Below, piece after piece: positions 4,473-25,176 of a stretch of DNA of 25,729 nt; the first letter of the stretch is position 1, and each line of letters starts with the position of its first letter. Origin of the DNA: a virus. Location of the stretch: positions 1 through 25,729 of IMG/VR virus record IMGVR_UViG_3300034122_000017; one strand, 5' to 3'. Made by a program: the position numbers and the translations under genes. The notes beneath the pieces were generated by a model. It made no database searches. It was not told the DNA's origin and saw only the letters and a list, made by a program, of their open reading frames with translations.

Positions 4473-5075
4473 TTAAGCCTCCAGTTTCAATCCAGTAAGT
4501 TCCATTTCATCGCCAACAGATCCCACAGGGAAGGTGTTGAACGACATCGAGATTCTTGTGTTTTCACCCTCTACAGGGGGAACATTGTGCTCAAGCGAAG
4601 AAGGGAAAAGAATCAGCCTTCCAGGAGTAGCCTCAAACCACCAAGACTCAGAGTTATACAGGTTCCAACTCTCAGGAGGAAACTTCATCTGCTGCCAGCC
4701 TGAGCGATGGAAATATATCCTGTCGTTTGGATTGGTTTGAGCGTAGAACACGCCAGAGATAAAAGAGTTCGGGTGAGCGTGCTTATGGTGAAACTGTCCT
4801 TGCTTGGAGTAGTTAAACCATGATTGCGTCACCCGCAAGTTCACATCGTGTTTCGGGTTGGTCGTGGCTTTGAAGTATTCAGCAACACAGTCCTCCACCC
4901 ATCCACGCAGGGGAGTCATCACCTGATCGCGCAACACAAAATGGTTTGCACTGGTGGTGTTCCCCTGATTAGGACGGGTGTCTTGGCCCAAGATAAAGGA
5001 ATGCTCTTCCTCAGACAGCGGCCTGCCTAAGTCGAACATCCCAATCGGGACAGGAAAGAGGTGGTGCATATTCAT
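4473..5075 (-). CDS. Putative 2-oxoglutarate/Fe(II)-dependent oxygenase
   Basis: A 200-residue protein matching the small phage/bacterial family of putative 2OG-Fe(II) oxygenases (double-stranded beta-helix fold). The N-terminus has the usual 'lFpvPig' opening (HHLFPVPIGMFD). The metal site is in FHHKHAHPNSFISGVFYA, with candidate ligands among His97, His99 and His101. The distal histidine is His163 (SSLEHNVPPV). Arg174 in ENTRISMSFN would bind 2-oxoglutarate, and SMSFNTFP is the typical closing strand. Such enzymes hydroxylate proteins or small molecules; the substrate is unknown. The start overlaps the stop of the 83-residue gene (ATGA), tying these genes together. Its place between adhesin and lysis genes suggests either modification of a virion protein or a host-metabolism role, which the sequence cannot decide. 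Confidence 0.88.
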   Translation of the reverse strand: MNMHHLFPVPIGMFDLGRPLSEEEHSFILGQDTRPNQGNTTSANHFVLRDQVMTPLRGWVEDCVAEYFKATTNPKHDVNLRVTQSWFNYSKQGQFHHKHAHPNSFISGVFYAQTNPNDRIYFHRSGWQQMKFPPESWNLYNSESWWFEATPGRLILFPSSLEHNVPPVEGENTRISMSFNTFPVGSVGDEMELTGLKLEA

Positions 5076-5331: not shown

Positions 5332-6993
5332 TCAATTCAACTTGATGATGACGATGCCGGAGCCGCCGGAGCCTCGTCCTGCTGTGACATTAAAACATCC
5401 ACCACCACCGCCACCTCTGTTTGCTGTTCCGTTAGATGCCGGAGCAGCAGAAACACCATTACCACCTCCGCCGGTTCCACCAGTTCCGTTTGTTCCGGAT
5501 GTTAAGTCTGTGTACCAACCACCTCCACCACCACCCGCATAAGTCACGGAAGAACCGGAAATTGAGGATGCGGTTCCATTACCGCCACTTCCAGCAGTTG
5601 TTGAGCCATTGTTCGATGCTGTTCCAGTTGCGCCTGCTCCTCCACCACCACCGCCAGACAACCCAAATGACCCACTGTTCCCTCCAGCGCCTCCGCTGTT
5701 GCCTTGGCTTGGAGAGGTAGAGGGCGTGTTCCCAGCTCCACCAGCCCCGCCACCTCCACCGCCACCACCAGACCCACCGCTGCTGCCAGCACCTTGGTAT
5801 CCACCGCCGCCGCCTCCAGCCGCAGTAATCGTGCTAAATGTTGAACTAGAACCATTAGGGCCGTTAGCAGCACTTGATGATGCGGCACCTCCAGCACCGA
5901 CAGTGATCGTGTATTCCGTTCCACCAGTAACAGACAGCCCGGTTCCCGTGCGGAATCCTCCAGCACCAGCACCAGCCTCCGATCCGGCTCCACCGCCGCC
6001 CACGACAAGGTAGTCCACGCTCGACACACCAGTCGGGCAAGTCCACTTGGTCGATGACTTGAAGGTGAATACGGTTTGAGCAGCGACGTTGTATTTCAGG
6101 ATGACGATGCCAGAGCCGCCTGCGCCGCCTGCGAAAGCTGTGCCGGGCACATTGAAACAACCACCACCACCGCCTCCGCCTGTATTGGTGGTTCCGGCAG
6201 TGCCAGCAGCGCCGGGAGAAGGCGCTCCAGCACCTCCACCGCCACCTGTTCCACCGCTGCCTTGTGTTCCTCCGGAAGCAACGCCGCCACCGCCGCCACC
6301 AGCGTAGGTTACCGAGGAGCCAGAGATGGTCGAGGCTGTGCCATTACCGCCCGCGCCTCCAGCCGTGCTCGTTCCAGCAGAACCAGTGGCTGTGGCGCCA
6401 CCTCCACCGCCAGACCCATAGTTGGGAGCGGCAGACGAACCAGCGCCTGCGCCGCCGTTGTTTCCTTGTGAGGGGCTGACCGAAGGCGTATTTCCAGAAC
6501 CCGCCGCTGCGTTATCTGCGCCACCACCGCCGGAGCCTCCGGACAATCCCGGCAACGCAGAAACCCCGGTGACTCCACCAGCACCGCCCCCGGCTGAAGT
6601 AATGGTGCTAAATACTGAATTGCTGCCCGATGTGCCGCGAGTTTGAGACGCAGGGCCACCATTCCCACCGCCACCCACGGTAATGGTGTAGTCGGTTCCA
6701 GCAGTTACAGACAGTCCTGTGCCCGTGCGGAAACCACCAGCACCGCCGCCCCCGCCATTTGCGCCACCACCACCGCCTCCGCCAGCAATAACCAGATACT
6801 CGACTTCAGTGACCCCAGCGGGGCAAGTCCAAGTGCCAGACGCGGTGAAGGTTTGCACGACGGTCAAGCTAAGGCGAGGCCAGATACCGCCCAGCACCGC
6901 CCTTTGCACTTCATTGAGTGCCCAAACGCCAGTAGCGACACTCGTTGTCGGCGTATTCTGTTTGCCGATTACGGCACCGTTACCGCGCTGCAT
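5332..6993 (-). CDS. Glycine-rich tail adhesin with an internal duplication
   Basis: The start at 6993 (MQRGNGAVIGKQNTP) is preferred over 7017. It forms a TAATG overlap with the upstream gene and has a GGAG motif nearby, and it gives 553 residues. The first 45 residues resemble a conserved virion-attachment region. Two tandem units of about 250 residues follow (48-301 and 309-553). Each opens with a 'FT..g.WTCP.GV..V.YLV' strand block, continues with long Gly runs and a shared GGFRTGTGLSVT block, and closes with GGGCFNV...GGSGIVI. Each unit has one Cys near each end (57/279 and 319/533). Similar glycine-rich domains occur in phage adhesins, where polyglycine helices pack and present variable loops to the host receptor. 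A receptor-binding role is therefore likely but inferred. The matching proline-rich frames on the other strand are artefacts of this composition. Confidence 0.88.
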   Translation of the reverse strand: MQRGNGAVIGKQNTPTTSVATGVWALNEVQRAVLGGIWPRLSLTVVQTFTASGTWTCPAGVTEVEYLVIAGGGGGGGANGGGGGAGGFRTGTGLSVTAGTDYTITVGGGGNGGPASQTRGTSGSNSVFSTITSAGGGAGGVTGVSALPGLSGGSGGGGADNAAAGSGNTPSVSPSQGNNGGAGAGSSAAPNYGSGGGGGATATGSAGTSTAGGAGGNGTASTISGSSVTYAGGGGGGVASGGTQGSGGTGGGGGAGAPSPGAAGTAGTTNTGGGGGGGCFNVPGTAFAGGAGGSGIVILKYNVAAQTVFTFKSSTKWTCPTGVSSVDYLVVGGGGAGSEAGAGAGGFRTGTGLSVTGGTEYTITVGAGGAASSSAANGPNGSSSTFSTITAAGGGGGGYQGAGSSGGSGGGGGGGGAGGAGNTPSTSPSQGNSGGAGGNSGSFGLSGGGGGGAGATGTASNNGSTTAGSGGNGTASSISGSSVTYAGGGGGGWYTDLTSGTNGTGGTGGGGNGVSAAPASNGTANRGGGGGGCFNVTAGRGSGGSGIVIIKLN

Positions 6994-7346
6994 TAGCTGA
7001 TCTCCTCGTATGAGCAAACAGCCTCAATGTCACTCGCTGCATTGGCCGTAAGCCTCAGAGAGTCGCCTTCCTCAAGATAGATGGGCTTTGACAGCACATC
7101 CAGTGAAGCATCAGCAGGCACCACTACCGTCTTGGCAATGTGGTATGCCGTAGAGCTTCGGAACAAATCAACATTGACCTCTGCGTTGTTAGTGCCATCC
7201 ACATTGGACACATACAAAGCATTGATCTTGAAAACTTTACCGCTAGCTGCGGAGTTGGTCACAATCGCCGTGGCTGAAGTACCAACTGCTTGAACAGCGG
7301 TCTTGCCAGTGATTGTGCTGACATTAACGATATTAGGGGCTGCCAT
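6993..7346 (-). CDS. Small conserved virion-associated protein (117 aa)
   Basis: A 117-residue beta-rich protein starting MAAPNIVNVSTITGKTAVQA. It contains SGKVFKINALYVSNVDGTN, ASLDVLSKPIYLEEGDSLRL and the ending DIEAVCSYEEIS. I recognise this as a protein commonly placed beside tail fibre genes in aquatic phages. The 'YVSN.dg' and 'iyLeEGDsLrltA' motifs suggest a small beta-sandwich, possibly a decoration, trimer cap or fibre-associated protein. A strong ribosome-binding site (AGGAAAGGA) lies in the short gap after the tail fibre gene. Its stop overlaps the preferred start of the glycine-rich adhesin, so the two are probably co-translated. The role is unproven. Confidence 0.8.
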   Translation of the reverse strand: MAAPNIVNVSTITGKTAVQAVGTSATAIVTNSAASGKVFKINALYVSNVDGTNNAEVNVDLFRSSTAYHIAKTVVVPADASLDVLSKPIYLEEGDSLRLTANAASDIEAVCSYEEIS

Positions 7347-15748: not shown

Positions 15749-16369
15749 TTACCTCGTGGCAAGTGTCATCGCAAGAGGAGCTGCAGAGTATTCGTCTCCC
15801 TCATCCGATGTGGTGATTGAATCAATCGCTCGTTGATACAGCGCAGCCCAAGTAGCAAGCCGCTCATCGTTCATCAGATACGGCTCTGCCTCTCCTAATG
15901 ATGCGTAGATCAAAGCATCGGGGTAGTTCACCAAGAACACATTGGATGTGTTTGAGTCGCTGAGATACGGAGGCGCCCCGTAGTAAAGCAGCGGAGCGGA
16001 GTAGTTCGTATCAGGGATCGGTGCAAACTTGAACTCTGTATCAAGAGTCGTGTATTGCTTTGGAATCCCGGTATCTGTGATCCGAGCATTCCTGACGAAG
16101 TTGCTTGGATTGAGGTACTGCAGCGGAGTCGCAGGAGTGGTTGCTAGATACAGATCCCGCAGACCCAAAAAGTCTGAAGGAATCGCAACCGTTGAGTCAT
16201 TTGCGATGACGGAAAGCGTCGACAGCTTCAGCATCTTGCGAGTACGAAGATCGCGGCGAAGGCGATTCTCTGCAAGCGTGATGAAGTCGGGAATCTGAGA
16301 GGTCAGATCAGACCGAGCGAGATAGTTCGCAATCGTGGTCTTGAGATCTGAGTATGTTGCGAGAGCCAT
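15749..16369 (-). CDS. Head-tail adaptor protein
   Basis: A 206-residue protein. The N-terminus (MALATYSDLKTTIANYLARS, then IPDFITLAENRLRRDLRTR) is the helical start typical of phage head-tail adaptors of the SU10-like and related families. The middle includes 'VAIPSDFLGLRDLYL' and 'YLNPSNF', and the later part 'LYYGAPPYLSDS...NYPDALIYASLGEAEPYL', also characteristic. The adaptor binds under the portal ring and docks the tail hub. Its stop lies two bases before the hub gene, and its start overlaps the previous stop (TAATG). The family assignment is by motif recognition. Length and context agree. Confidence 0.85.
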   Translation of the reverse strand: MALATYSDLKTTIANYLARSDLTSQIPDFITLAENRLRRDLRTRKMLKLSTLSVIANDSTVAIPSDFLGLRDLYLATTPATPLQYLNPSNFVRNARITDTGIPKQYTTLDTEFKFAPIPDTNYSAPLLYYGAPPYLSDSNTSNVFLVNYPDALIYASLGEAEPYLMNDERLATWAALYQRAIDSITTSDEGDEYSAAPLAMTLATR

Positions 16370-16751: not shown

Positions 16752-17699
16752 TCAGCTCAAGTCAGCGATGATGCCGTGGGCAGCCTCATTGCGAACCTCA
16801 AGGGTGTATTCAACCTTGAGCTGGGTGCGCTCGGCATCGCCCACGATTGCCAGATCTTGCGTCTGGAAGGGACGCAGATAAGCAACGGCTGCGTACTCGG
16901 GATCGAGCACGAAGGCCACTTCGTTTGCCGAGTTGCCCGAAACCATGAAGCGGTTGGGCACCACGCTCACGGAGCCGAAGTCCGACAGATAGATGTCGGC
17001 AGCACCGATGATGGTCGTGGGGGCATCCGAAGGAGCCATATAGCGCTGAGCAGCGATACCGGCGAAGGCCGAAACGGTCTGCTTGTGAGCAGGCGTGACC
17101 ATTAGGATCTTCGGGGAACCACCGGCCTCGAACACCTCACGAATCACGGTCTTCAGGATGTCTTCCGTGAAGGTACGGTTCGTGCCGTTGGTACGAGCGG
17201 TCGTGCCAGAAGCACCAGCAGAGCCACCCGAGCCGAAGTCGCCGTTCGTTGCCAACCAGGTCTGCAAGCCACCCAACACACGAGCGGTAGAACCGGCAGA
17301 GCCGTTGCTCTGGACGGTGTTGCTCAGGAAGGTGAACTCCATGTCGCGCTTGATTTCGGACGAAGCCTTAGCAAGCTGATAAGCCTTTTCAGACTTACGG
17401 CCAGCCTTGTCAACAGCCTCCAGGGTGCCAGTAACACCAACGGTCTTCTGGCTGATCTGGGTGCGGTTGCCAACACGGGTCGTGGGCGACAGCGTAGCGG
17501 TCGATGCGTCAGCACCTTCCACGGCGGCGTTCGCGGCAGCAGCGGCCAGCGAGTCGGTCTGCCACTCGTGATAAACAGCGGTGGCCTTGGTCTTGCCAAC
17601 CGTGCTCATGAACGGGGTGTCAGTCGGGCTGATGTTGTAGATCACATCAGACAGGTCTTCACGCATACCGATGGCAGCGTAGGTACGGAATTGGGTCAT
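16752..17699 (-). CDS. Major capsid protein, SU10-like (DUF5309-type)
   Basis: A 315-residue HK97-fold-type coat protein. The N-terminus (MTQFRTYAAIGMREDLSDVI, then YNISPTDTPFMSTVGKTKA) is a hallmark of the SU10-like major capsid family. It is followed by 'HEWQTDSLAAAAANAAVEGAD' spread over residues 44-64 and 'RVGNRTQISQKTVGVTGTLE'. The central part has the family's 'KILMVTPAHKQTVSAFAG' block (about 199-216), and the C-terminal part has 'VVPNRFM', 'VLDPEYAAVAYLRPFQTQDL' and 'TLEVRNEAAHGIIADLS'. It would assemble the icosahedral shell with the scaffold encoded just upstream. A strong ribosome-binding site (TAGGAG) overlaps the scaffold stop. The coding sequence looks more GC-rich at third positions than its neighbours, as expected for a highly expressed gene. 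Confidence 0.93.
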   Translation of the reverse strand: MTQFRTYAAIGMREDLSDVIYNISPTDTPFMSTVGKTKATAVYHEWQTDSLAAAAANAAVEGADASTATLSPTTRVGNRTQISQKTVGVTGTLEAVDKAGRKSEKAYQLAKASSEIKRDMEFTFLSNTVQSNGSAGSTARVLGGLQTWLATNGDFGSGGSAGASGTTARTNGTNRTFTEDILKTVIREVFEAGGSPKILMVTPAHKQTVSAFAGIAAQRYMAPSDAPTTIIGAADIYLSDFGSVSVVPNRFMVSGNSANEVAFVLDPEYAAVAYLRPFQTQDLAIVGDAERTQLKVEYTLEVRNEAAHGIIADLS

Positions 17700-17708
17700 T
17701 TTTAACTC

Positions 17709-18656
17709 CTAGAGCATTCGTTCAAACAGGGCCGCAGCATCAGAGACTTTTCCAGACTTCCTCAACTGCGAGTGAGCTTTCTTGGTGCTTTCGTCGGCTG
17801 CGTTCTTTTGGTTCGCCGCCACGCCTGGACTCAGCATCTTGGGTGCGTTTTGTACCTTCTTGGTTACCTCGGGCTTCTGCTTCTGGAGTTTCGCGTATTG
17901 CGCTGCCATCCACAGCACCTGAACTTGTCGCGAGTCGTAAGCCTGAGCAAGTTCTTGGTCAGTAAATCCCACCTCTTTTGCAAAGGCGCGGATCGTCTGC
18001 TTCACTTCGTTGCTCTTCTTTGCGTCTCCATATTCAGGAATAACCTCAGCCACGCGCTTTGCTTCTTCGTGGAGTCGCCGCTGAAGTTCAGCCTGCTGCT
18101 CGGCGAATCGCTGTTGTGAAATTCGCTGCTGCTCGGCTTGAACCATCGCAAGCTGTTTCTCTCGCTCAGTTCGCTCTGCTACCTTGACTGCGTAACCAAT
18201 GGGGTCAACCTCTTTCAACGCATTGAGGTCTTCCCCTTCGTTTTGTTTACTCAAGAACTCTTCGATCAGGGTCAGGCGTTGAGAGTAGGCGTCCCTCGCT
18301 TGCTTGGCCTGTTCAATGGCGGCCCGTTCTGCCTCTACAGCTTTACGCTGCTCAGCTACGGACTGACTCTTTTTGGTGTAGTCCAGCCCCTTCTGATAAC
18401 CGTCCACCAATTCATCAAAGGTGACTTCCTTTTCCTCGCCAGCGGCTTTCACACGGAATCGCTGGGGTTCAGGCTCTGCCTCGACTTCTTGGGCTTCGAC
18501 TTCTTCAGGTTCGGACGCCTCGACTTGTTCCTGTTCCTCTGGAGCTTCAGGGGCGGCTTGTTCAGCTTCCTGAGTAGGCTCCATCAGTCCGAGAAACGCG
18601 CCAGCGGCATCGCTTACCGACATCGAAACACTCCCTTGCGGGTCAGTGTCTGCCAT
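17709..18656 (-). CDS. Capsid scaffolding protein
   Basis: A 315-residue acidic, helical protein. A flexible glutamate-rich N-terminal region (about 25-65, poly-E/P/A) is followed by 'FRVKAAGEEKEVTFDELVDG' and 'YQKGLDYTKKSQSVAEQRKA'. I recognise that 'v.GeekevtldElv.GY....dYt.KtQ..aeerk' motif from podovirus scaffolds. Long coiled coils follow (about 97-200, rich in Glu, Gln, Arg and Ala), and the C-terminus is short and basic (QLRKSGKVSDAAALFERML), the usual capsid-binding helix. It would guide procapsid assembly and leave before or during DNA packaging. It lies immediately upstream of the capsid gene. No protease motif is visible. Confidence 0.88.
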   Translation of the reverse strand: MADTDPQGSVSMSVSDAAGAFLGLMEPTQEAEQAAPEAPEEQEQVEASEPEEVEAQEVEAEPEPQRFRVKAAGEEKEVTFDELVDGYQKGLDYTKKSQSVAEQRKAVEAERAAIEQAKQARDAYSQRLTLIEEFLSKQNEGEDLNALKEVDPIGYAVKVAERTEREKQLAMVQAEQQRISQQRFAEQQAELQRRLHEEAKRVAEVIPEYGDAKKSNEVKQTIRAFAKEVGFTDQELAQAYDSRQVQVLWMAAQYAKLQKQKPEVTKKVQNAPKMLSPGVAANQKNAADESTKKAHSQLRKSGKVSDAAALFERML

Positions 18657-18694: not shown

Positions 18695-18925
18695 TTACAG
18701 AATCTTCCATCGCCTCTTGACCAACTGATCGCTGGAGGCAATCGAAGAAAAGTGCCCAATTATTTCATCAAGTACGCGCAATTTCAAATAGCATCGTTCA
18801 CGAACATCAATATCGGTCTCATTTGAGTTCGTTAGTGTGCTTATCAGGGATTTCCTGATGGACTCTATTTCCTCCTGAAACCACTCGTCGTTTAGAAGGG
18901 TTTGTGCGCGGTCTGCTTTGTTCAT
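18695..18925 (-). CDS. Small conserved helical phage protein (76 aa)
   Basis: A 76-residue helical protein starting MNKADRAQTLLNDEWFQEEI. It has a middle block 'IRKSLISTLTNSNETDIDVR' and the ending 'VLDEIIGHFSSIASSDQLVK' plus RRWKIL. I recognise the layout ('RA..lLnde.f....e.ir.....i.ns...d...re..y..lrvL..i..hl.sia......KRwkI') from small proteins between portal and scaffold genes of other podovirus-like phages, with no known role. The start overlaps the stop of the DUF4214 gene (ATGA). Its position in the head module suggests an assembly function, but this is inference. Confidence 0.75.
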   Translation of the reverse strand: MNKADRAQTLLNDEWFQEEIESIRKSLISTLTNSNETDIDVRERCYLKLRVLDEIIGHFSSIASSDQLVKRRWKIL

Positions 18926-20388
18926 CTGCTGGTTGTTGAATCTACATAATCAAGCAGCATTCCACCACCTTGGCCGAATGCCGGGATGTCGGCGAAATCC
19001 AAAAGCATCCCGTTGCCACGCCCAAAGACCGGGATAAAGTTGGCGTCTCCAATTTGTCCGAATGTGCTTCCGATAGACATATCAACCAATCCAGGAACAA
19101 GCCCACCGGTCATTGACCCAGAGTAATCCCTGCCAATGACCGTCCCACTAATCGGGTCAACAATTGAGGTTCCTTGGATAACGCCACCTGTGTTTAGATC
19201 AAACCCAGGCTGCGCTTGGTTGGCGAGAGGATTGCTCGCCTGACCGATTACAGCACCACTAATCGGATCAATGATGTCTCGGCCCTGCACAACACCGCCA
19301 GTGCTCAAGTCGTATCCCATGCCAGGGGCCACGCCGATTACTGCACCGCTGATCGGATCAATGATGTCTCCACCCTGGATTACGCCACCAGTTGCTCGAT
19401 CAAATGTGCCTTGAGTATTGCCAATCACTGAACCGCTGATCGGATCAACGATATTGCTGCCGACATACACGCCGCCCGTGTTTGGGTCAAAAGTAGCGGT
19501 GTTTGCTGTAGTTTGATTTGTACTCAAAAGGCCACCAGTAGACCCACCAACAATGCCAACACCGCCAGTGGTTCCTCCTACAGTATTGGTTACGCCACCG
19601 CCGCCGGTGTTCTCCATACTAGAGCCGATGGAGCCAAGCGCGGCCTGCCGAGTCGGTGCCGCTGGCAGTCGCTGCATCCCATCAGGAGCAGAGAAAAGCA
19701 GGGGGTTTACTGTCGCCAGGAATCGCCCAGCCCCGTATGGGCCTTGAGGATTGAAGTACCGTGTAAGGTACTCATTGGCTGTCATTTGCGTTGGGCCAAG
19801 TAGCCCAGGCTGCGTGCTGGGAGTAAACCCTGCTCGACGGGCGGGATCGGTTGCCAGCTCCATGCTTTCCGGGGAGCCTAGAATATTGGCCCGGATTTGG
19901 TCAGCAGAGAACTTAGACCCCAGATAGAACTGAAGCCCAGCCTTATCGGGTTCACGGCCAAGCACATCACGGTAGATGGCGCGAACTTGCTCTTCTGTGG
20001 CAGGGGTTCCGGTAGCGAACTCACGAGCGGCCATCCCTTGGCGCTCAGGAGATGCCAGGAGAACCTCGCGGATCTGCTCAGGAGAGAAGTCCGACTCAAG
20101 GTAGAAGTTCAGACCAGCAGGATCTGCCTCTCGGCCCAGAATGTCCTGATAAGCGGCCCGAACATCAGCCTCTGTTGCGGCGTTTCCTGATGCATATTGC
20201 CTAGCACTAATTGCCTCATTTCGAGCAGCCTCGTCCGCGAAGTTGCGTGCCTCTTGTGAGTTGGCAATATCGTTGGCAATCAGATCAAGACTGAACTGCG
20301 GGTTTGAGTAGAACTCCAGCCCAGCAGCGTCAGGCTCGCGCCCGAGGTAAGTGCGGTAAAGCTGTGTGATTTGCGCTTTTGTTGCCAT
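18922..20388 (-). CDS. DUF4214 protein with a C-terminal tandem repeat
   Basis: A 488-residue protein lying between the portal and scaffold genes. The first 175 residues hold three DUF4214-type helical repeats. Their core motif is YRTYLGREPDAAGLEFY (11-27), YQDILGREADPAGLNFY (80-96) and YRDVLGREPDKAGLQFY (139-155). A glycine/threonine-rich linker follows (about 250-298). Then come four copies of a 24-residue unit of the form FDxxTGGVxxGxxIxDPISGxVIG (from 300, 329, 359 and 396). The end has two short GxGxGMLLD-like copies (FGRGNGMLLDF and FGQGGGMLLDY). DUF4214 occurs in large bacterial surface and extracellular proteins and has been linked to polysaccharides, though its role is unsettled. In the phage it could be a head-decoration or surface protein, but no function is shown. 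Confidence 0.85.
   Translation of the reverse strand: MATKAQITQLYRTYLGREPDAAGLEFYSNPQFSLDLIANDIANSQEARNFADEAARNEAISARQYASGNAATEADVRAAYQDILGREADPAGLNFYLESDFSPEQIREVLLASPERQGMAAREFATGTPATEEQVRAIYRDVLGREPDKAGLQFYLGSKFSADQIRANILGSPESMELATDPARRAGFTPSTQPGLLGPTQMTANEYLTRYFNPQGPYGAGRFLATVNPLLFSAPDGMQRLPAAPTRQAALGSIGSSMENTGGGGVTNTVGGTTGGVGIVGGSTGGLLSTNQTTANTATFDPNTGGVYVGSNIVDPISGSVIGNTQGTFDRATGGVIQGGDIIDPISGAVIGVAPGMGYDLSTGGVVQGRDIIDPISGAVIGQASNPLANQAQPGFDLNTGGVIQGTSIVDPISGTVIGRDYSGSMTGGLVPGLVDMSIGSTFGQIGDANFIPVFGRGNGMLLDFADIPAFGQGGGMLLDYVDSTTSR
19132..19491 (-). repeat. Four in-frame tandem copies of a 24-residue coding repeat
   Basis: Within the DUF4214 gene, four units of 24 codons begin at residues 300, 329, 359 and 396, with spacers of 5, 6 and 13 residues. 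The invariant core is TGGV, then G, then I, then DPISG and VIG. The spacing differs between units, so the copies arose by duplication and then drifted in the linkers. Codon usage differs between copies too, so the array is not a recent exact expansion. Confidence 0.85.
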
Positions 20389-20391
20389 GTT

Positions 20392-22437
20392 TTACCCCGG
20401 AATCTCTACATTGGAGGAAATGCCTGCGCCCAACTTTGCTGCCTTGAGTTGGACTTCAGCCTCGAACTCTTGCTGTTTCAGTTGAAGTTCAGCAGCCGCT
20501 TTCTCTCGGGCCAGTTGGATTTCTGCAGCAGCCTTCTCGCGCTTGGCCTGAATATCGGCCATTGCCTTCTGGCGGTCAATCTCTAGTTGAGCTTGAGCCT
20601 GCATCATCATCGCCTGGATCGCAGGATCGGGCTGTTGCTGCTGCGGAGGAGGGTTGCTGAGAGCCTGGTCAATCTCAGGCGTGATCGGCTTGAAGAAGGT
20701 GGCCGAGTCCTTGAACCCTGCGGCCTCGATCATCCGTCCTAAAGTGTCCCGATACTGAGCCACAGAAACGAGCGGATTGGCAGGCCCGAACTGCTGCAGG
20801 ATCTTCTCCTGCTTATCAAGAATCATCGCCAGCATCGCCATCTGCTCTTGACGGTTACCAGTTCCCAATCCCACAGAGATGGTCACATCGTACTGATTCG
20901 ACCACTCACGCGGATCCATCGGCACATACTCACCACGCATCCGAATCAGACGAGGCTTGTCCTGGTACTTACACAGAAGATGCAGGATGCCCTTAAACAG
21001 AGTCTTTACGCCGGTCTCAGCGAAGATCCTGGCGATCAGCTCCAGCTTTCCTGACGATGCGCTTGAGAACGCAGCCACAGCCGTAGCGGTGACATTCTGG
21101 AGAATGTTGGGGTCTAGGCCTTGGCTTGCATCTGAAACGCCCGTGCGCTTGGCTTGGGTTTGATCCAAGTATTCCAGCATCGGGAAGGCTTGATTTGCCA
21201 CCGGCTGCACGGCCATCGGAACCACCGCATTCGGGTTCTTCATCCGAACTACGCCACCAGGTGTCACGCTTGTGAGGTCGTCCAGGTTTACCTGACCCTC
21301 GATAGCGCCCACCCGGACATTGTTCGTGAGATACAAGTTGTCCAGCATCTGGCGCGTGATGGTGGACTTCTGGAGCTGGATGTCCATCGTCTTGTCCGCG
21401 AGGGACAGGCCGTAGAACTTATGAGGCACGGGGATAGGACAGATCCCGTGGAAGGGGATGTAATCCGTCTCGCTCATCTCCAGGATCTTGGAACCTGCGT
21501 ACCAAACCTGCATAAGTTCGGCAATGCCATCGTTGTCCATATCTGCGCGGACATAGCACTCGTATACCTCGACCTCCTGCATGGAAGGATCGTAGGACTC
21601 CTGCTCCGATGGTTGTTCTCCTTCAGAGAATCGAGCCACTCGCTCAGGACTGAACGACAGATCATCGTAAGTGGGAAGGTTCTGGACTTCCTCCCAAGGA
21701 AATCCCATCGCCACCAGATCAGAGCGCGGGATCAATCGGCGATGAGCCGTGAAGGGAGAGTCTTGGATCGTCCGAGCGTGCTTGGAGATCAGAAACTCCT
21801 CGGGCGGGACATTGACGATCTTGATCTGGCCGACCTTGTTCTTCTTCTTGACCTGAACGGTGTGGGTCGTGTTCATCAACGGCATCCCATCCATTCCAAT
21901 GGCAGGCTGGCCGTTTTGATCGAATACTTGGTAACTGACCGTATCCTGGGCGATGATCTCCTGCGTCTGGTCTGCCATCAGCATCACCAGCTCATCATCA
22001 CTCAAGCCCTCATAGGTCTCCTTGATGACCGAGACCGAATCATCCCAGTAAGCCTTGACGATGCCGACCTTCTCCAGGAGAGCGTCCTTGAACCAGTCGT
22101 GCATGATCGCAAAACCACGGTTGTCCTTGTAGAACACCCAGTTTGCGTAATCAGTTGCTTGCTTGGCTTTCGGCTCGTCTCCGGGGCCAACAGGCTCGAA
22201 TCGAACCACATCGTCTGAAGCGGTAAAAATGCGAATGAGTTGAGGAAGCGCCCCGTCAATGACCTCAGCAACCTCCCCAGTGACGATCTGGGAGCGGCCC
22301 TCTACTTCATTCCCGTACGGGTATCGAAGGTAATACTCCAGCGCCCTCGTGCGTTGCTCGGTCGTCTCCGTCTGGAGATAGCCGATTGCTCCGTCGATTT
22401 CTGCTTCGAGTTGGGCTTTCAGAGCGTTCTCGTTCAT
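20392..22437 (-). CDS. Portal protein, SU10-like
   Basis: A 681-residue portal. It forms the dodecameric ring at one capsid vertex through which DNA is packaged and ejected. The N-terminal half has the family's 'QRTRALEYYLRYPYGNEVEG' and 'RSQIVTGEVAEVIDGALPQL' blocks, and then 'DWFKDALLEKVGIVKAYWDD'. Further on are 'VPPEEFLISKHARTIQDSPF', 'VPHKFYGLSLADKTMDIQ', 'DNLYLTNNVRVGAIEG' and 'YQDKPRLIRMRGEYVPMDPR'. The C-terminal 75 residues are a Gln/Ala/Lys/Glu-rich coiled coil (containing AKREKAAAEIQLAREKAAAE), probably the barrel helix extended by a tail. A GAGGAA ribosome-binding site lies just upstream of the ATG, inside the small overlapping ORF. It follows the large terminase gene, as usual. 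Confidence 0.93.
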   Translation of the reverse strand: MNENALKAQLEAEIDGAIGYLQTETTEQRTRALEYYLRYPYGNEVEGRSQIVTGEVAEVIDGALPQLIRIFTASDDVVRFEPVGPGDEPKAKQATDYANWVFYKDNRGFAIMHDWFKDALLEKVGIVKAYWDDSVSVIKETYEGLSDDELVMLMADQTQEIIAQDTVSYQVFDQNGQPAIGMDGMPLMNTTHTVQVKKKNKVGQIKIVNVPPEEFLISKHARTIQDSPFTAHRRLIPRSDLVAMGFPWEEVQNLPTYDDLSFSPERVARFSEGEQPSEQESYDPSMQEVEVYECYVRADMDNDGIAELMQVWYAGSKILEMSETDYIPFHGICPIPVPHKFYGLSLADKTMDIQLQKSTITRQMLDNLYLTNNVRVGAIEGQVNLDDLTSVTPGGVVRMKNPNAVVPMAVQPVANQAFPMLEYLDQTQAKRTGVSDASQGLDPNILQNVTATAVAAFSSASSGKLELIARIFAETGVKTLFKGILHLLCKYQDKPRLIRMRGEYVPMDPREWSNQYDVTISVGLGTGNRQEQMAMLAMILDKQEKILQQFGPANPLVSVAQYRDTLGRMIEAAGFKDSATFFKPITPEIDQALSNPPPQQQQPDPAIQAMMMQAQAQLEIDRQKAMADIQAKREKAAAEIQLAREKAAAELQLKQQEFEAEVQLKAAKLGAGISSNVEIPG

Positions 22438-24580: not shown

Positions 24581-24608
24581 CTATAGCAATGCAAACTCAT
24601 TGCCATAG
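24581..24608. repeat. 28-bp inverted repeat in the divergent gap beside the HNH gene
   Basis: Arms CTATAGCAATG (24581-24591) and CATTGCCATAG (24598-24608) are complementary except for one position and are separated by six bases. As minus-strand RNA the mismatch becomes a G-U pair, giving an 11-base-pair stem. It lies between the divergent HNH gene and the 50-residue gene. It covers the earliest possible HNH start (ATG at 24589) and, on the minus strand, a TGCTATAGT extended -10-like element. It may be an operator, an RNA hairpin or part of a homing-site junction. Confidence 0.7.
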
Positions 24609-24612
24609 CGTT

Positions 24613-25176
24613 ATGAAAAACATCAACTGCTTATCGTGCGGCGTTTCATTTAAGCCAAAACGATCAACAACGAAATGCTGCTCAAGATCTTGCTCATCTA
24701 AGTATGTCGCAACTCTTGTAGGAGAGCAACGGGCGCAGAAACGAAGAAACGGCCAAATGATGATTTGCCAGCATTGTTCTACGGAGTTTTATGTCCCTAA
24801 GTATCGAATCGAGCTTGCCAAATTTTGCTCTCGCAGATGCTTGGCTTTGGCTCATCCAGAAATCTCACTCAAGGCCCGGACAAACAGTCCACTCATGCGT
24901 AGAGCTGGAACAGCGCAGCCCAGAAAGTATGTTGTGATTACTGTTGACGGAAAGCAAGTCAGAGAACATCGCCATGTTATGGAAAAACACCTTGGACGCA
25001 AACTTGAGCGTTGGGAGCAGGTCCATCACATCAATGGTGACCCAAGAGACAACAGAATTGAGAACCTACAAGTTCTCTCTAACTCTGAACACCAAAGGCT
25101 AGAACTCAGCCTTTTTTCTTCGCAACACGCCGACTTTCAGAAAGAGCAATCGCCAGCGCCTGGCGAGGATTGGTGA
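24613..25176 (+). CDS. HNH homing-type endonuclease
   Basis: The start at 24613 ([18 protein letters not shown]) gives 187 residues; an in-frame ATG at 24589 would add eight residues but lies inside an inverted repeat. Neither start has a clear ribosome-binding site. Two zinc-binding cysteine sets come first: CLSC...CC..SC and CQHC...FCSRRC. The HNH nuclease follows: [20 protein letters not shown], then [16 protein letters not shown] and SEHQRLE. These are the hallmarks of HNH_3-type homing endonucleases of phages, which cut alleles lacking the gene and spread by repair. It is the only plus-strand gene in the right-hand 25 kb. Its last 71 bases overlap the DUF6496-like gene antiparallel, and its final 20 residues look unconstrained. 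Confidence 0.9.

Follow-up and report, generated by a model that had tools for sequence, protein, structure and literature searches.

Hypervariable phage genes usually encode points of contact with the host, tail fibres being their usual location, and accessory virion genes that are swapped among phages are a kind already known. For the podovirus SU10, the published description reports five ejection proteins, gp20-24, released from the head (PMC9509320). DUF4214, the domain with which this work is concerned, occurs in predicted bacterial surface proteins (PMC12780176).

Here we analyse a stretch of viral DNA of 25,729 nt (IMG/VR record IMGVR_UViG_3300034122_000017), called hereafter the window, in which a DUF4214 gene directly follows a portal gene of SU10 type. 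The place of this gene is called the slot. Our search of the open-access literature found no description of a hypervariable locus between portal and scaffold genes, and the position of the slot, the precision of its exchange and its modular content appear undescribed there.

Results

The slot gene of the window lies in an SU10-type head module

Portal, capsid and adaptor genes, all of SU10 type, succeed each other in the window in the order of the head module of SU10-like podoviruses (Table 1). The slot gene begins 3 nt after the portal stop codon and is followed by a 76-aa ORF, the scaffold gene and the major capsid protein gene. An earlier note on this DNA had placed it between portal and scaffold; the neighbours were correctly named, but the 76-aa ORF intervenes before the scaffold gene. 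An ORF of similar size occupies the equivalent place in most annotated relatives. Promoter and terminator matches around the slot gene, sought with a sigma-70-type consensus only, were at chance level and formed no flanking pair, so that the gene is probably co-expressed with the head genes.

Table 1. Coordinates of the slot gene, its parts and the neighbouring head genes in the window
Feature	Position	Strand	Evidence or remark
Portal protein, SU10 type	20392..22437	-	PF23899, 4e-223; 3' end is the upstream cassette edge
Slot gene, 488 aa, DUF4214 x3 / YGAGRF / DPISG x4	18922..20388	-	
DUF4214 unit 1, aa 2-53	20230..20385	-	profile; helical in AlphaFold2 models
DUF4214 unit 2, aa 71-122	20023..20178	-	profile
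DUF4214 unit 3, aa 130-181	19846..20001	-	profile
Putative anchor region with YGAGRF, aa 206-252	19633..19773	-	common to otherwise unrelated slot proteins
DPISG unit 1, aa 300-323	19420..19491	-	
DPISG unit 2, aa 329-352	19333..19404	-	
DPISG unit 3, aa 359-382	19243..19314	-	
DPISG unit 4, aa 396-419	19132..19203	-	
Conserved C-terminal tail GMLLDFADIPAFGQGGGMLLDY, aa 455-488	18925..19026	-	near-invariant in L005 and L006
76-aa ORF	18695..18925	-	ATGA start overlaps slot stop; downstream cassette edge
Head scaffolding protein	17709..18656	-	phrog_3927, 2.3e-52
Major capsid protein, SU10 type	16752..17699	-	PF17236, 1e-101
SU10-type adaptor protein	15749..16369	-	PF24175, 1.8e-33

Elsewhere in the window, a 2OG-Fe(II) oxygenase (4473-5075, minus strand; PF13759, 9.9e-23) is encoded after the tail genes. 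A 561-aa protein with two glycine-rich domains (5332-7017, minus strand; PF21722, 3.5e-54, two stretches) is possibly a receptor-contact protein, and an HNH endonuclease (24589-25176, plus strand; PF13392) is encoded on the strand opposite to the structural genes.

The slot protein has a net charge of -21 and no cysteine. The Pfam profile of DUF4214 (PF13946) matched it in three stretches (4.7e-17) with 62.3 bits, against a curated cut-off of 23.2; each unit reached at least the cut-off, one of them only together with its neighbours, and pairwise identity among the three was 38-58%. The 24-residue DPISG unit (consensus [FY]DxxTGGVxxGxx[IV][IV]DPISGxVIG) is present four times within residues 300-419; its copies, separated by linkers of 5, 6 and 13 residues, share 62-79% identity as protein and 61-72% as DNA. 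The string DPISG, found four times here, never occurred as often as twice in 20,000 shuffled versions of this stretch. Profile, coordinates and shuffles thus confirm both sets of units, as the earlier note had described them. At the DNA level Tandem Repeats Finder detected no repeat in the DPISG region, which indicates that the repeat is old and maintained at the protein level. The protein contains no hydrophobic segment, and neither a signal peptide nor another export signal was seen by eye.

Relatives of the window protein keep its architecture

Six viral contigs in IMG/VR matched the window protein, three of them identically and the others with 71-90% identity over the best segment; over the whole length, identity was 92% for L005 and 73% for L006. 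Copy numbers are stable, since every complete relative retains three DUF4214 and four DPISG units, the latter 73-100% identical. Conservation was strongest in the C-terminal tail and in the stretch around YGAGRF. The dN/dS ratio of the family (0.08-0.11, versus 0.04-0.10 for the portal) shows that the protein is maintained by purifying selection.

Bacterial genomes gave no confirmed relative, and a search of 50,697 phage records with the window protein gave two insignificant matches only (E 0.1). Protein searches of the phage collection with P0001, L018, L030, L077 and L091 found no cultured phage with a similar allele. A comparison of DPISG copy number across phages, which had been proposed in the earlier note, was made with a DNA pattern that matched 99 stretches: against the constant four copies of the window family, the unit was found elsewhere only in L156 and L176, twice in each, and the remaining matches were short and single.

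L156 belongs to another phage group. Its 1020-aa protein (L156:4771-7833, minus strand) combines the two DPISG units with a DUF4214 match, and the gene directly precedes one of the phrog_4287 DNA-ejection type; the situation in L176 is similar. Both proteins, of about 1000 aa, have a hydrophobic Gly-rich region and a conserved C-terminal domain (LADGEFV.PARIVSELGNGS). In L011, another phage with a DUF4214 protein, a fusion of this domain with an ejection protein was suspected by eye, and was abandoned when pairwise comparison with phrog_4287-type proteins showed no similarity.

Predicted structure

An AlphaFold2 model, built on an alignment of three sequences, gave repeated four-helix units for the DUF4214 part (pLDDT about 80), and a second model of the triplet alone agreed with it (mean pLDDT 73.5). 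The linker, residues 175-304, had very low confidence (pLDDT 25-35), each DPISG unit consisted of two or three short strands (about 50), and the C-terminal tail was near 30. From a three-sequence alignment, such low values in the linker and repeats are compatible with disorder and do not prove it. The beta-solenoid-like stalk suggested in the earlier note calls for a confident prediction of evenly built rungs, all of one length; in this three-sequence model the strands are short and of modest pLDDT, the linkers irregular and the flanks disordered, which lends the idea no support but does not prove that a fold is absent.

Fold searches of solved structures gave no significant match, and none to decoration proteins or fibres. 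LPS binding of the RsaA kind was considered, as RsaA ranked first in two of these searches, and rejected: E was 0.04-0.09 with TM below 0.2, and two sequence profiles of DUF4214 units yielded just weak phycobilisome-linker and chance matches. The N-terminal domain of RsaA (PDB 6t72, an LPS-binding S-layer anchor) is helical like the DUF4214 region, and the resemblance is only a lead. In predicted viral structures, the matches included a phage protein with a DUF4214 annotation (1.3e-4) and a protein with a glycosyltransferase annotation (9.5e-6); a further one, with a glycosyl hydrolase annotation, had an insignificant E.

The gene after the portal is hypervariable

The gene directly after the portal was examined in the 80 contigs with the best portal matches. 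It was nearly always present, typically starting 3 or 4 nt past the portal. After removal of duplicates, the 65 distinct contigs with an intact slot gene fell into 36 full-length families (80% mutual coverage) of 131-1080 aa; when proteins were grouped by any shared module, seven groups resulted. For pairs whose portals were at least 90% identical, the slot protein had a median identity of 0.15, whereas scaffold and capsid protein reached 0.89 and 0.91, respectively. Even where portals were at least 97% identical (148 pairs), less than 50% of slot residues were identical in 90 pairs. Between the window and L014-L019, portals are 93-95%, scaffolds 88-92% and capsid proteins 95-100% identical, whereas the slot proteins share no similarity. 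From terL to orf473, the slot gene is the sole one without a match in the relatives compared with the window.

On a portal tree, at least 40 changes of slot family are required, a count that is approximate because this quick tree has open forks. Families F2, F3 and F7 reappear in separate branches, and alleles therefore travel between lineages. Two other sources of the variability were considered. Chimeric assembly is unlikely, since identical alleles recur across several samples and the breakpoints are constant, being shared by many independent contigs. Positive selection on codons was not seen, dN/dS being about 0.1.

Slot genes are replaced from start to stop codon

The DNA flanking the slot is 83-91% identical between the window and L014, L015, L016, L018, L019, L020 and L022. 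In all seven alignments, similarity is lost 6 nt into the slot gene and regained at the stop codon. For L028 and L029, the portals are 99.3% identical and the flanking DNA 95 and 98%, the slot proteins are unrelated, and the breakpoints lie 3-4 nt inside the ends of the slot gene. Overall, the break falls within 4-6 nt of the slot start codon. Because similarity breaks at the start codon and returns at the stop codon, slot genes are replaced whole: the entire gene is exchanged from start to stop while flanking genes remain 85-100% identical.

Partial sharing was also observed. L026 and L027 have the C-terminal part in common, but their SGNH regions, at the N-terminus, differ; the last part of the slot protein is common to L067 and L080, so that module exchange occurs alongside exchange of whole genes.

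The slot is empty in some relatives

L068 is a natural empty site, its homologue of the 76-aa ORF lying directly after the portal stop codon. A compact arrangement of portal and 76-aa-type ORF, lacking the slot gene, is found in Venkman, HTVC106P, tf and Mvi-Yong1342-1, as well as in the spring-water genomes MW202711 and MW202481. The p2-10_Or1 record has only 244 nt at this place, and phiM5 only small ORFs. It is occupied in C72C1 (362 aa), MW202462, MW202710 and MJing1. Most annotated relatives checked thus miss the slot gene, and the empty sites indicate that it is an insertion dispensable for portal function. The Microcystis phage MJing1 carries two unrelated genes there (L201:7199-9405), the first of which looks by eye like a methyltransferase.

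Sibling alleles share motifs and modules

A GDSL/SGNH lipase match was found in 11 of 40 slot proteins and a DUF4214 match in five. The slot proteins of L014, L026 and L030 display GDS and DxxH blocks like those of active SGNH enzymes. Many larger alleles contain Gly/Ala-rich hydrophobic segments, with one weak Gly-zipper match. Further alleles carry repeats, which are helical in the L018 group and coiled-coil-like in the L043 group, or Pro-rich sequence (L048).

In the lineage of the window, a motif around YGAGRF recurs among slot proteins. A profile of it from which the window family was excluded found L029 (2e-9) and the orthologues of the window protein in L006 (2e-7) and L007 (3e-8), and in the six-frame set it had no significant match outside slot proteins. 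The copy in the window protein itself scores weakly, the location of the motif within slot proteins varies, and in the L018 family a GAQRF variant is the most that is seen. Our guess, prompted by its conservation, is that the motif may serve as an anchor. Motifs and modules common to several relatives occur in new combinations.

A second lineage, the L054-L091 portal clade, has a constant slot C-terminus of its own, SINDIISGIQNQYGQ. Three of its members (L056, L061, L062) have two genes in the slot, and DUF4214 is present below threshold in two (L075, L088).

Across the 36 family representatives, only 2 of 21,113 slot residues are cysteine, versus about 0.5% in portals. This scarcity fits work outside the cytosol; the scaffold is likewise free of cysteine.

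DUF4214 and glycans

That DUF4214 is a domain of bacterial surface proteins, as the earlier note stated, agrees with PMC12780176. Some bacterial DUF4214 homologues, on the plasmids L210, L209 and L206, adjoin genes for GDP-mannose 4,6-dehydratase, GDP-L-fucose synthase or FkbM methyltransferase, a context hinting at a link with glycans. The glycan binding suggested in the earlier note gains indirect support, and a glycan or envelope role is reasonable given the surface-protein DUF4214, the sugar-gene neighbours and the SGNH sibling alleles. Substrates of SGNH domains also include lipids and peptidoglycan.

Discussion

We propose that the window gene is one allele of a slot between the portal and the conserved 76-aa ORF in a group of SU10-portal podoviruses. 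Alleles would be swapped during co-infection by homologous recombination in the conserved flanks, which we infer to be the simplest mechanism of exchange. The product would be synthesized late, together with the head proteins, and retained by the virion, inside it or on its surface, close to the portal or capsid through a lineage-specific docking motif, here YGAGRF. It would work on the host envelope at adsorption or genome entry: the three DUF4214 modules of the window allele may bind an envelope glycan, which the SGNH esterase of sibling alleles may modify, with the disordered linker and DPISG units as a putative flexible spacer. We lean towards this reading, an exchangeable accessory allele whose product is a component of the particle with the host envelope as its target; its putative function is probably to make a particle-borne part that touches that envelope.

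External display and an internal, ejected position are equally compatible with the data. In the second form, to which we give a limited chance, the product is packaged in the head by the conserved motif and exits the portal ahead of the DNA, its variable part being active within the periplasm or at the membranes. The hydrophobic Gly/Ala-rich segments of many larger alleles and the near absence of cysteine from slot proteins would suit such cargo, as would the L156 protein, which carries DPISG and DUF4214 modules directly before a phrog_4287 gene, and the release of five ejection proteins from the SU10 head (PMC9509320). However, the window protein lacks a hydrophobic segment and matched no PHROG, hence none of the phrog_4287 ejection type; the ejection proteins of SU10 are gp20-24, and the window's own candidate, orf273, sits elsewhere; and turnover of whole genes is more usual for receptor-contact parts.

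The main rival, which we regard as rather unlikely, is a role outside the virion, as a late factor of the infected cell (envelope superinfection exclusion, anti-defence) that is a passenger of the head operon. Such genes are typically exchanged rapidly, and the slot gene is accessory, being missing from many relatives and from the empty site of L068, with hydrophobic segments in many alleles. Against this, the window allele shows no signal peptide by eye and no promoter or terminator of its own above chance, and the motifs conserved within individual lineages point to docking with a partner from the phage.

The earlier note's combination of capsid display, glycan binding and a beta-solenoid-like stalk is itself a form of the favoured explanation. 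DUF4214 in surface proteins, the SGNH siblings and an allele turnover like that of receptor-binding genes argue for it, but the prediction for the repeats and the want of any similar solved decoration protein or fibre make it improbable as a whole. A helper role in the morphogenesis of portal or scaffold would account for the position between these genes and for an acidic, cysteine-free product like the scaffold, yet relatives that have this portal type manage assembly without the gene, and its sequence shows no co-evolution with either portal or scaffold, so that we give it hardly any credence.

Returning to a particle-borne product, we tentatively consider that the slot could be dedicated to payloads, the lineage-specific docking motif loading whatever protein is encoded and payloads being exchanged as whole genes. 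With the same reserve, the cargo might comprise envelope binders, esterases and membrane-active segments, by analogy with the variable parts of secreted polymorphic proteins of bacteria. Here it is the head operon that contains the hypervariable place, which adjoins the most conserved genes and has edges defined to within a few bases. If slot products are in the virion, portals could serve to locate host-contact or payload proteins in uncultured phages. The slot also offers a context in which DUF4214, a domain with no known role, can be put to the test.

Comparison with known systems

Bacterial DUF4214 (PF13946) proteins have the LGRxPDxxGL core in common with the window protein; the latter differs in that its gene lies in a phage head operon, in its fusion to the YGAGRF and DPISG regions, and in having no export signal by eye. 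SGNH/GDSL domains of particles, as in the head-operon sibling alleles, are known from the tail spike of Pseudomonas phage tf and from phiM5_14, a protein of the phiM5 head region annotated as detected in particles. Unlike phiM5_14, the window allele has no enzyme domain, and the slot follows the portal gene whereas phiM5_14 follows the capsid gene. SU10-like podoviruses have the same portal, capsid and adaptor types as the window; the accessible part of the SU10 virion description (PMC9509320) contains no counterpart of the slot protein, and the slot gene is absent from the LUZ24-like and the marine relatives.

With a classical moron the slot gene shares its accessory character and its absence from relatives (L068 and six annotated ones), but it has no promoter or terminator of its own above chance (sigma-70-type consensus only). 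Swapped accessory virion genes, such as receptor-binding and decoration genes and morons, are likewise accessory and exchanged between conserved flanks; what distinguishes the slot is its exact place between the portal gene and the 76-aa ORF, and replacement at the start and stop codons.
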